Assembly: GCF_000711985.1 (NCBI RefSeq)
Contig: NZ_JONU01000008.1
Span: forward strand, 124,001 to 188,000
DNA: 64,000 bases
Source of the DNA: Rheinheimera texasensis DSM 17496
GTDB taxonomy: Bacteria; Pseudomonadota; Gammaproteobacteria; Enterobacterales; Alteromonadaceae
Direction of reading: 5' to 3'
Shown here: one piece after another, positions 16,607-20,070 of the stretch
Position numbering within the stretch: the first letter of the stretch is position 1
Layout: each line of letters starts with the position of its first letter
Notes under the pieces: generated by a model
Told to the model about the DNA's origin: nothing
Databases searched by the model: none
The model's input: the letters and a program-made list of their open reading frames with translations, nothing else
Program-made: the position numbers and the translations under genes

Positions 16607-17878
16607 ATGCAAGAACAGATTTATCATTTACAGTTTGCCATGGACACCTTTTATTTTCTGGTGTGTGGCGCCTTAGTGATGTGGATGGCGGCAGGTTTCG
16701 CCATGCTGGAAGCTGGTTTAGTCCGGGCAAAAAATACCACGGAAATCCTGACCAAGAACTTTGCCTTGTATGCTATCGCATGTTTGATGTTCATGATTTG
16801 TGGATATCAGTTCATGTACGGTGGTGGTTACTTCCTGTCCGGTATTGAAGCTTTGAATGTGGATGAAACGCTGGCTGGGATGGCAAGTCGTGAAAATGGC
16901 TTCACTGGTAAAGCGGCTTACTCAAAAGCGGCCGATTTCTTCTTCCAGGTGGTGTTTGTTGCCACGGCGATGTCGATTGTCTCTGGTGCTGTCGCTGAGC
17001 GGATGAAACTGTGGGCATTCTTCGCCTTTGCAGTAGTCATGTGTGGCTTCCTTTATCCAATGGAGGGGTCATGGACCTGGGGCGGTCAACCGGTATTTGG
17101 CCTTTACAGCCTTGCAGATTTTGGTTTCTCTGATTTTGCTGGCTCTGGCATCGTTCACCTGGCAGGCGCAGCTGCGGCGTTAGCCGGTGTGATTTTGTTG
17201 GGTGCCCGCAAAGGTAAATTCACTAAGGATGGCAAAGCACACGCTTTCCCTGGTTCAAACATGCCTCTGGCGACACTGGGTACTTTAATCCTGTGGATGG
17301 GCTGGTTCGGTTTTAACGGTGGCTCCATGTTGAAGTTGGGTGACATCGGTAATGCACATGGTGTGGCGATGGTGTTCGTGAACACTAACGCTGCTGCAGT
17401 CGGCGGTGCCTTGTCAGCTCTGATTGTGTCGATGGTGCTGTTCCGTAAAGCTGACTTAACCATGGTACTGAACGGCGCTTTGGCTGGTCTGGTAGCTATT
17501 ACGGCTGAACCTTCCACGCCGACACCATTACAAGCAACAATTTTTGGTGCAGTAGCTGGTGTTCTGGTCGTCGCAGCAATCATCGGTTTCGACAAAATCA
17601 AGATTGATGACCCGGTTGGAGCGATTTCAGTGCACGGCGTGGTTGGTTTCTTTGGCCTGATGATTGTGCCACTGACCAAAGACAGTGCGTCATTCCTGGG
17701 GCAATTTATCGGTGCGGCAACGATTTTCGTCTGGATCTTTGTTTGCAGTCTGATTGTCTGGGGCGTGCTTAAAGCCACTATGGGTATTCGCGTCAGCGAG
17801 CAGGAAGAATATGAGGGTGTGGACCGTTCTGAGTGTGGGATTGAAGCCTATCCGGAATTTGTGTCGACCCTAAAGTAA
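16607..17878 (+). CDS. amtB: Ammonium transporter AmtB
   Basis: 423 aa with eleven predicted membrane helices and no cleaved signal peptide (MQEQIYHLQFAMDTFYFLVC). Family blocks include AGFAMLEAGLVRAKN near the start, GSGIVHLAGAAAALAG with the first pore His, and ISVHGVVGFFGL with the second. It conducts ammonium across the inner membrane and is inhibited by the GlnK made from the same operon. The cytoplasmic tail ends SECGIEAYPEF, common in marine Amt proteins. An AGGAG ribosome site overlaps the glnK stop. Confidence 0.96.
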   Translation: MQEQIYHLQFAMDTFYFLVCGALVMWMAAGFAMLEAGLVRAKNTTEILTKNFALYAIACLMFMICGYQFMYGGGYFLSGIEALNVDETLAGMASRENGFTGKAAYSKAADFFFQVVFVATAMSIVSGAVAERMKLWAFFAFAVVMCGFLYPMEGSWTWGGQPVFGLYSLADFGFSDFAGSGIVHLAGAAAALAGVILLGARKGKFTKDGKAHAFPGSNMPLATLGTLILWMGWFGFNGGSMLKLGDIGNAHGVAMVFVNTNAAAVGGALSALIVSMVLFRKADLTMVLNGALAGLVAITAEPSTPTPLQATIFGAVAGVLVVAAIIGFDKIKIDDPVGAISVHGVVGFFGLMIVPLTKDSASFLGQFIGAATIFVWIFVCSLIVWGVLKATMGIRVSEQEEYEGVDRSECGIEAYPEFVSTLK

Positions 17879-18277: not shown

Positions 18278-18312
18278 TAAACAGGAAAGCCGCATCCTTT
18301 TGGGATGCGGCT
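18278..18312 (-). terminator. Probable terminator of the CsrB-type RNA
   Basis: On the minus strand AGCCGCATCC, a 5-base loop and GGATGCGGCT form a 10-bp GC-rich stem followed by TTCCTGTTT. The stem is strong and the T tract mediocre. It lies at the right distance after the last CAGGGA-type motifs. Confidence 0.65.
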
Positions 18313-18879
18313 ACCGTAATGCTTTGTCAAATTCCATTTTAAACCCGAAGGTTTGTCTTCCCTGCCTCCCTGAGGAGATTCACGCGCTGTGAAGGTTTTA
18401 ACATCCGTGCTCATAAAACGCTGCCAGTGCAGTGTCGTACTTCAAGCCAATCCAGGCTTTCCTTCCCTCGCTGGTATCATCCTGATACCGCTGCTACATC
18501 CTGTAGCGTCCTCTGTCCCTGTGGGTATCATCCTGACACCGCTGCTACATCCTGTAGCGTCCCCTGTCCCTGTGGGTATCATCCTGATACCGCTGCTACA
18601 TCCTGTAGTGTCCTCTGTCCCTGTGGGTATCATCCTGACACCGCTGCTACATCCCGTAGCGTCCTGATTTGGTGTGATTAACTCCCTGAATAACACCTGC
18701 TCGTCCTGAGCGACTGCTCCTTTGGCTGACATCCTGTCAACACGGCCGTTCCCGGCATCCTCATCCCTCGAGATTTCTTCCTGAAATCTCAGCTCATCCT
18801 GAGCCTGTCCATGACAATCCGACTGATACACCATCCATGATGTTTTACTGCGAGTCGCAGTAGTGTCTTCACTGACTGT
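18280..18879 (-). ncRNA. csrB: CsrB-type small RNA that sequesters CsrA
   Basis: Read on the minus strand, this roughly 600-nt region holds about 34 GGA trinucleotides, many in the loops of short perfect hairpins: GCTCAGGATGAGC, TGACAGGATGTCA, GCTCAGGACGAGC, GCTACAGGATGTAGC and GGTATCAGGATGATACC. The core ACAGGAUGU equals the optimal CsrA-binding sequence found by in vitro selection (RUACARGGAUGU). This is the architecture of CsrB/RsmZ RNAs, which titrate the translational repressor CsrA. It is bounded by a minus-strand hairpin at 18288-18312 and a -10-like CATAAT at 18891-18886; both ends are estimates. There is no plausible protein in the region. E. coli CsrB is about 369 nt with some 20 motifs, so this one is larger. 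Confidence 0.92.
18473..18665. repeat. 51-bp tandem repeat, 3.8 copies, inside the CsrB-type RNA
   Basis: Units start at 18473, 18524, 18575 and 18626, each exactly 51 bp apart; the last stops after about 40 bp. Copies differ at only a few positions. Every unit encodes two CsrA-type hairpins on the minus strand (GGTATCA/TGATACC and GCTACA/TGTAGC, loop GGA) plus GGGACAGAGGAC-type linkers. In units 2 and 4 a stem change keeps a G-U pair on the minus-strand RNA but makes A-C on the plus strand, favouring the minus strand as the functional one. Confidence 0.93.
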
Positions 18880-18885
18880 GTGAAC

Positions 18886-18891
18886 ATTATG
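18886..18891 (-). promoter_or_regulatory. Putative -10 element of the CsrB-type RNA
   Basis: CATAAT on the minus strand, placing a start near 18879, just before the first hairpin (ACTGCG/CGCAGT). No good -35 is visible at 17 bp, which fits an activator-dependent promoter. Tentative. Confidence 0.4.
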
Positions 18892-19049
18892 CCTACGAAT
18901 TGTCTGCTGATGAGCGATGTAAGCCATAAATGCGGGGGGGAAGTACTCTAGTTTGTTTATCTTGTTTCAGTAAAGCACTTATAAAACAATAGGATAGTAG
19001 ACATTGCAAAGTTCTTCTCTGCTCGAAATAACGAAATGACTTACTTAAA

Positions 19050-19067
19050 TGTGAGATATATCGCACA
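19050..19067. promoter_or_regulatory. UvrY/GacA-type box (or CRP-like site) between csrB and the DyP gene
   Basis: TGTGAGATATATCGCACA is an 18-bp imperfect palindrome. It agrees at 14 of 18 positions with the inverted repeat I recall as the BarA-UvrY (SirA/GacA) activating site of enteric csrB, and lies about 180 bp upstream of the estimated RNA start, the distance at which such sites act. It also resembles a CRP half-consensus pair (TGTGA-N6-TCGCA) 77 bp upstream of the gene at 19144, so it could serve either direction. Confidence 0.55.
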
Positions 19068-19143: not shown

Positions 19144-20070
19144 ATGGCGAGAGAACAAGTAGGGGTGTGTGCAGAACCGAATCTGCACGGTTTGTTATTA
19201 CTGATGAATGCACTGGATGGCCACGAAAGTGCGGTTCGTCATGTGCTTGGTAGCATCCCCGGATTGATCCATAAACTGGCTGAACAATTTTCGGAAGCGA
19301 ATCTGAATGCGATCGTGGCCATCGGGTCCGGCTATTGGCATTCATTGTACCCGCACGCACGTCCGGCAGATTTTCAGCCATTTTCTCCACTTTCTGTTGA
19401 TGACCTGGCCATGCCAGCCATCCCTTATGATGTGCTGCTGAAGATCCGCGCCGATCGCTATGACGTGTTGCACCTGGCGATTCAGCAATGTTATCAGTTG
19501 TTGATGCCGCATTTGGAATTGGTTGAGCAGACCCATTGTTTCCGCTTTATGGACGGCCGTGATCTTACTGGTTTTATCGACCAGCCTCTGCCTCCGCGCG
19601 GACGGAAAAAACGGGAACTTGCCTTAATCAATGAAAATCAACAACCAGAGTTTGCGCAGGGCAGTTACCTGTTTTATCAGCGCTACCGCCTTGATTTAAA
19701 CCGCTGGCAACAATTAACCCAAGCTCAGCAGGAAGCGATTATCGGGCAGAGGAAGCTGGACGGTCAGCAGTTACCGACCGCGCAGCTGCATGAACACAGT
19801 CATGCAGTAAAGGCCGCTGTAATGGATGCATTCGGCCAGTATTACCCTTTAGTGTTTCAGAACATGCCGTATGGCCAGTTAAAATCACAGGGCTTAGTGA
19901 TTCTCGCATGTTCAGCAGATCCTTCAGCCTACCTGGCGTGGCTTAGTCGCCGGCTTGGTGATGCTGCGGGTCAGAATTATGATTTGTTGCTGGATTATGT
20001 ACAGGCAGACAGTGGTGCAGCTTTTTTTGCACCATCTGTCAGTTTCTTGGAGGATTGTGCGACGTTGTAG
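19144..20070 (+). CDS. DyP-type peroxidase homologue with altered active site
   Basis: 308 aa, aligned by eye with Shewanella DyP protein TyrA over its length (REQVGVCAEPNLHGL, MDGRDLTGFID, MPYGQLKSQGL, AAFFAPSVSFLED). The catalytic Asp146 of GFID and the proximal haem ligand His220 (HSHAVK) are present. Two usually invariant features are changed: the Gly after Asp is Gln (GFIDQP instead of GFVDGTENP), and the distal arginine preceding QxMPYG is Phe238. These changes predict weak or no ordinary peroxidase activity, though haem binding may remain. No signal peptide. It starts 76 bp after the UvrY/CRP-like box and converges on argR. Confidence 0.85.
   Translation: MAREQVGVCAEPNLHGLLLLMNALDGHESAVRHVLGSIPGLIHKLAEQFSEANLNAIVAIGSGYWHSLYPHARPADFQPFSPLSVDDLAMPAIPYDVLLKIRADRYDVLHLAIQQCYQLLMPHLELVEQTHCFRFMDGRDLTGFIDQPLPPRGRKKRELALINENQQPEFAQGSYLFYQRYRLDLNRWQQLTQAQQEAIIGQRKLDGQQLPTAQLHEHSHAVKAAVMDAFGQYYPLVFQNMPYGQLKSQGLVILACSADPSAYLAWLSRRLGDAAGQNYDLLLDYVQADSGAAFFAPSVSFLEDCATL

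Follow-up and report, generated by a model that had tools for sequence, protein, structure and literature searches.

A large CsrB-type RNA gene with a tandem module array, predicted from sequence beside a Dyp-type peroxidase gene in Rheinheimera texasensis

In a 64,000-nt stretch of Rheinheimera texasensis DSM 17496 DNA (the window), the interval between amtB and a Dyp-type peroxidase gene very probably encodes a CsrB-type decoy RNA, which would titrate CsrA under UvrY. The sequence has the features expected of the CsrB/Rsm kind: GGA hairpins, a non-coding character, a distant UvrY palindrome, a terminator, and CsrA, UvrY and BarA all encoded in the genome that carries the RNA. By analogy with characterized Csr systems, the RNA would be transcribed, controlled by UvrY and bound by CsrA, and would thereby titrate this protein. 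This kind of RNA is known, and the present one is a variant by its size, its tandem build and its 3' domain. The gene order is amtB (+), RNA (-) and Dyp-type peroxidase (+), with the following features.

16607..17878, plus strand: amtB, ammonium transporter, convergent neighbour (Pfam PF00909, 320.8 bits)
18280..18879, minus strand: CsrB-type RNA gene, about 600 nt, 35 GGA (from GGA/hairpin statistics, RF00018 and genus synteny)
18280..18441, minus strand: conserved 3' domain, 162 nt, 5 GGA, terminator included (alignment A2, 9 species)
18312-18288, minus strand: intrinsic terminator, 10 pairs, tail TTCCTGTTTA (terminator search)
18383..18401, minus strand: core TTAAAACCTTCACAGCGCG of the 3' domain
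18462..18664, minus strand: array of four 50-51-nt two-hairpin modules (TRF, modules read out)
18665..18879, minus strand: 5' part with diverged GGA hairpins
18886..18891, minus strand: -10 element CATAAT
19050..19067, minus strand: UvrY-type palindrome TGTGCGATATATCTCACA, 18 nt, centre at about -179
19144..20070, plus strand: Dyp-type peroxidase gene, divergent neighbour (Pfam PF20628 and PF04261)

The minus strand of 18280-18879 contains 35 GGA, as compared with 3 on the plus strand, in line with an earlier note on this DNA, which had claimed about 34 in some 600 nt. When the window was scanned at every base, the maximum per 600 nt was 35 on the minus strand and 18 on the plus strand, and the minus-strand mean was 5.8. 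Dinucleotide shuffles of the RNA region (n = 1000) yielded a mean of 19.5 and a maximum of 31 GGA, with 0/1000 reaching 35. The GGA-loop hairpins described in the earlier note were recovered as well, since 18 of the 35 GGA lie in hairpins whose stems have 4 or more pairs, far above the shuffles (mean 4.1, maximum 11; 0/1000 reach 18), and the exact core motif that it had singled out, ACAGGATGT, occurs four times in the minus strand of the gene, along with nine occurrences of CAGGATG. The folding energy of 18280-18940 (minus strand) gave z = -4.1, based on only 20 shuffles. In the global minimum-energy fold, part of the array is paired between modules and not as simple hairpins, and when pairing was limited to 40 nt, 10 of the 35 GGA were partly paired.

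Signals at both ends delimit the gene. The terminator-like stem noted previously corresponds to the intrinsic terminator at 18312-18288, whose tail reaches about 18280, the predicted 3' end. The predicted start, about 18879, was set 7 nt past the end of the conserved -10 element, and the extent claimed for the RNA agrees with this element, this start and the terminator tail. Upstream, a UvrY-type box had been claimed at 19050-19067; the palindrome TGTGCGATATATCTCACA lies there and has a counterpart in 21 other genus genomes. The exact box TGTGAGATATATCTCACA stands beside the Dyp gene in 21/22 genus genomes, and one base is changed in that of the window; the same changed base is carried by the csrC-like box (see below) of genome L116. 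The promoter alignment comprised 21 rows, namely 19/22 genus genomes (the window's own included) and two duplicate loci, and left out L041 (contig ends inside the RNA), L046 and G158 (Dyp gene split over two contigs). In all 21 rows, [CG]ATA[AC]T was found at the same distance, with 178-180 nt from the box centre to the start, a distance that falls within -222 to -142, where UvrY was crosslinked at E. coli csrB according to the part of the study available to us (PMC4682653). A consensus promoter scan did not list the promoter of the window RNA, and no good -35 element was seen by eye in the sequence upstream of the -10. We also observed a stretch, TGGCTTACA, at 18918-18926 (minus strand), between about -47 and -39 relative to the predicted start, which holds a half-site-like CTTACA, lies near the place where a second region of UvrY crosslinking has been described at E. 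coli csrB, and was seen also in L036 and L038.

The locus is conserved throughout the genus. The neighbouring Dyp-type peroxidase is 96% identical to its counterpart in a Rheinheimera MAG, and the Dyp gene is present in 22/22 genus genomes searched. The box, the -10, the terminator and the GGA repeats are kept beside the same Dyp gene in all 19 aligned genomes of the genus, that of the window among them, and genome G158, which was read separately, has the box, the -10, the terminator and 22 GGA. A terminator at the matching place was found in 20/22 genus genomes, in addition to G158, and the contig of G157 ends inside the RNA. The RNAs of L033 and L034 are letter-for-letter those of L036 and L037 and were not counted as species. 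Outside the genus, the family search provided 27 of the 29 csrB loci fetched; the Dyp gene adjoins the RNA in 4 of these 27, and amtB is also present in 3 of the 4 (within 1.5 kb on each side). For several of the loci from other genera, no terminator was found, and the default-end lengths and GGA counts were not used.

The RNA is related to the CsrB family but falls short of its annotation threshold. The Rfam CsrB model (RF00018) matched the minus strand at 18409-18660 over model positions 1-356 with 52.7 bits (E = 5.5e-13 in a 1.6-kb stretch and 3.7e-13 genome-wide). The model search suggested in the earlier note thus succeeded in part: the match spans the full length of the model, but the score lies under the gathering score of 71 bits, which places the RNA outside formal RF00018 membership (score of at least 71), and a default Rfam scan of the window at the gathering cut-off returned no match for this reason. 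The RsmY model reached only 14.7 bits (E 0.93) on the window RNA, and a permissive Rfam scan listed six further families with chance-looking matches, such as GlsR17 and mir-454. Genome-wide, only two further RF00018 matches appeared at E <= 10, one weak and within the 5' part of the RNA itself, the other a 22-nt fragment resembling a terminator at a different location. Among 147 family genomes searched with RF00018, 46 gave a match at E <= 0.001, 101 gave none at this level, and the gathering score was reached in none of the 147, while the E. coli control passed. Annotation by the Rfam cut-off would therefore miss the csrB genes of the whole family, leaving those of the 147 genomes unlisted.

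Much of the GGA count is supplied by a 51-nt tandem repeat, a point absent from the earlier note. TRF assigned a period of 51, 3.8 copies and 94% matches to 18473-18665, and each module opens with GGAC, followed by hairpin A, a linker and hairpin B, and closes with a second linker that contains a further GGA. Lengths were determined for 19 RNAs of the genus. Ten of them are compact, at 331-332 nt with 21-23 GGA and no array of about 50-nt period, whereas nine are long (543-708 nt, 33-43 GGA) and contain arrays with a period of 49-52, amounting to 3.8 to 7.4 copies by TRF, or 4-7 modules. In the Dyp protein tree, which was flagged for long branches (L032, L038), the compact lineage lies on one side of a 100/100 branch, with 89/93 for the long lineage. 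The length range published for the CsrB-type RNA family, as given in the part of the article available to us, is 100 to more than 400 nt (PMC6262261). In the open-licence literature, no tandem or modular Csr RNA is named among the matches listed, as judged from titles and the beginnings of abstracts; the same search returned no paper with both Rheinheimera and CsrB and none joining Alishewanella, CsrA and sRNA.

The pairing within the modules is maintained. In 44 modules from 9 species (18 distinct at stem positions), 96.0% of the stem cells are standard pairs, as compared with a mean of 74.7% and a maximum of 80.8% after the 3' letters were redealt (n = 2000; 0/2000 reach 96.0%), and both partners have changed in 49 stem cells, where the shuffles average 16.0, in a test that ignores relatedness and in which the loop offset, 1 or 2 nt, was chosen by best pairing and so favours pairing. 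The counts were anchored on the GGA loops because the MAFFT alignment was off by one base at hairpin A from one species group to another; module L038_u3, which has lost its GGA, was anchored by hand, and the loop filter of an earlier count had dropped 3/44 modules. The compact-lineage alignment A1 has a double change in only 2/84 predicted pairs, since its sequences are 94% alike.

The arrays also vary in module number. The sister species L042 and L043 are 96.5% alike in the 5' part and 96.2% in the 3' part, whereas the array is 103 nt longer in L042 (348 nt) than in L043 (245 nt), which equals two modules. Concerted evolution of the modules, as read from the sequences, has only partial support: the nearest module lies in the same species for 22/44 modules, and the modules of the window species score 0.897 to those of the nearest relative versus 0.892 among themselves. 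Tandem arrays with other periods (44, 26 and 38 nt) were seen in the csrB loci L009, L010 and L028 from other genera, the end of L028 being assumed, which suggests repeated independent growth.

The part of the RNA next to the terminator, which is poorer in GGA, is in most comparisons the best conserved. In four close pairs, the 3' parts (181-184 nt, including the domain) are 98, 93, 96 and 95% alike, versus 89, 76, 97 and 89% for the 5' parts and 93, 85, 91 and 85% for the arrays; the 3' part is thus best conserved in 3/4 pairs, with the 5' part marginally ahead in one. In addition, the 19-nt core TTAAAACCTTCACAGCGCG is unchanged in 8/9 species aligned. Both observations would fit a sponge whose 3' domain has a second function, either turnover controlled by CsrD and RNase E or base pairing with another RNA, an alternative that we consider possible but rather doubtful. 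The genome encodes a CsrD-like GGDEF/EAL protein of 552 aa (L120:764-2422), whose best NCBIfam match is CsrD with 319.6 bits, under the cut-off of 663 (E. coli CsrD, 974.2). The gene adjoining it has a weak GspL match, and we take it to be an MshI-like pilus gene. A review, in the part available to us, confines CsrD to the enteric, Shewanella and Vibrio families, and describes an RNase E cut just upstream of the terminator that starts the turnover of E. coli CsrB (PMC7652899). By analogy with this cleavage, a turnover role of the 3' domain may be regarded as a lead, not a result.

Several observations argue against such a second function. When 9 other csrB loci, two from the compact lineage, were compared with the 3' domain by blastn, only pieces of 10-21 nt with E of at least 1.9 were obtained, which is chance level outside the long lineage. 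A search for the core pattern in 295 family genomes (16/22 genus genomes included; up to 2 mismatches) returned 33 places in 32 genomes, as compared with 6 matches for the reversed control. Eight of the 33 are csrB 3' domains, all from the window's genus (7 exact, 1 with one mismatch), but none of the other 25, which exceed the control and include two at one mismatch, lies in a csrB-like stretch: the GGA counts per 400 nt there are at most 9 (n = 12) or at most 11 (n = 13), versus 22-33 at csrB loci. The core may also simply be a stable hairpin. In the predicted fold of the 3' domain, 7/43 pairs have double changes, but the 19 nt of the core hardly vary.

We also considered whether the region is a repetitive protein-coding gene, represented by the 161-aa minus-strand frame at 18442-18927 or by plus-strand frames of 84/92 aa. 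Open frames do exist, the 51-nt period keeps the frame, and the 161-aa frame can be partly aligned in the closest relative (87% over 69 residues, 82% over 60), as would be anticipated from the 93% identity of the DNA. In this same relative, however, the frame contains an in-frame stop and the DNA alignment has gaps of 4, 1 and 1 nt. Furthermore, other species have arrays with periods of 49, 50 and 52, none of which is divisible by 3; the module stems carry compensatory changes; and a Pfam search with the three frames returned no match. The breakage was seen for the 161-aa frame, and the plus-strand frames were compared in five relatives by their longest open stretch. On the grounds of the broken 161-aa frame and the lack of Pfam matches for the three frames, we rejected the coding reading as extremely improbable, and the description of the reading frames over the RNA as spurious is probably right. 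From units that are tandem, palindromic and partly homogenised, one might also propose a DNA repeat of the REP/BIME type, selfish or structural and with no function as RNA. This reading is just as hard to credit and was rejected, because the genome-wide RF00018 search gave no scattered matches beyond the two minor pieces mentioned above, the region is flanked by a conserved box and -10 on one side and a conserved terminator on the other, always at the same locus within the genus, and the conserved features are GGA loops with their flanking stems.

The remaining components of a Csr circuit are also present. The single CsrA of the genome shares 56/61 aligned residues with the 1y00 chain (counted from the alignment); UvrY was recognized by 60% identity and an NCBIfam score of 342.7 bits versus a cut-off of 280, and BarA by 40% identity over the full length. 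With up to 3 mismatches allowed, the box was found at just two places in the genome that contains the window, the second being upstream of a terminator-ended, csrC-like RNA of about 294 nt with 9 GGA.

L058, box 1501-1518; genome C5:1130185, minus strand: csrC-like RNA with UvrY box and 9 GGA

This RNA lies between yihI and a cytochrome c gene, the latter next to engB/yihA, and the locus matches the yihA-csrC-yihI order of E. coli; it had no Rfam match at E <= 0.1. Across the genus, 19/22 genomes have exactly two copies of the UvrY palindrome (up to 1 mismatch) and 3/22 have one, with 0 for the reversed control, which suggests that very few sites carry the palindrome. The second box belongs to a csrC-like RNA in 19/19 loci read, beside which yihI was found in 19/19 and engB and the cytochrome gene in 18/19. 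The csrC-like RNA of L103, the sole such case among 19 aligned, has an extra 21-nt direct repeat with GGGA, reminiscent on a small scale of the csrB arrays. Because of the csrC-like gene at C5:1130185, the designation of the window RNA as the organism's csrB needs correcting: its CsrB-type nature is supported, but the genome has at least one further Csr RNA, and the locus differs from that of csrB in E. coli. In E. coli the order is yqcC-csrB-syd, whereas the window RNA sits between amtB and the Dyp-type peroxidase gene, and thus the two are not positional orthologues.

Taken together, we favor a CsrB-type decoy RNA acting as follows. Phosphorylated UvrY would bind the palindrome about 180 nt upstream and activate transcription of a non-coding RNA of about 600 nt that ends at the intrinsic terminator. 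The GGA hairpins and the linker GGAs would then bind CsrA dimers, drawing them off mRNAs. In the lineage of the window, the RNA appears to have been enlarged by tandem duplication of the module of about 50 nt, and since the module number differs between species, the CsrA capacity probably differs too. It is conceivable, although we would not expect it, that CsrA capacity is a countable trait, with whole modules gained and lost between sister species, while the conserved 3' domain has another job, such as licensing turnover by CsrD and RNase E or pairing with an RNA. With RNAs that have no array or 4, 5, 6 or 7 modules at one locus and with one promoter type, the genus provides a natural series of sponge RNAs, which could be used to test the number of sites against the CsrA threshold.

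Among known Csr RNAs, E. coli CsrB resembles the window RNA in GGA density (6.0 versus 5.8 per 100 nt in the window, by the same script), in the position of the UvrY palindrome centre (-182 from the annotated 5' end versus -179) and in the model, RF00018, which the window RNA matches over its full length. E. coli CsrB ends in an intrinsic terminator, as does the window RNA. The two differ in size (369 versus 600 nt), in GGA (22 versus 35) and in hairpin GGA (11 versus 18), and the window RNA is further set apart by its tandem modules, its 3' domain, its genomic place and its sub-gathering score. The counterpart of E. coli CsrC is the second Csr RNA of the genome, which occupies the same engB(yihA)-yihI interval, although here the cytochrome c gene intervenes and the RNA has 9 GGA versus 14. 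Within 300 nt upstream of E. coli csrC, a TGT-N12-ACA palindrome was not found, the best near-match having 7 mismatches, whereas an inverted repeat upstream of this gene is reported in the part of the study available to us (PMC4682653).

In the marine bacterium Pseudoalteromonas fuliginea, the Pf1, Pf2 and Pf3 RNAs are likewise GGA-rich, antagonize CsrA and occur several per genome, and CsrA binding has been shown for Pf2 and Pf3, according to the parts of the reports available to us (PMC11882849; PMC9927453). They differ from the window RNA in having 25, 21 and 9 GGA, respectively, and in that their description, as far as it was available, includes no tandem module array; Pf1 and Pf2 were judged by sequence search to be genus-restricted (PMC11882849; PMC9927453). 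For Shewanella oneidensis, the portion available describes two csrB copies separated by a transposase gene, at a locus other than that of the window RNA and with predicted lengths of 420 and 421 bp for CsrB1 and CsrB2, and csrB2 transcripts of about 700, 600 and 450 (PMC3171408). These RNAs share with the window RNA a putative box upstream, TGTAAGN6CTTACA, and are dependent on BarA/UvrY (PMC3171408), the same control that we propose for the RNA of the window.
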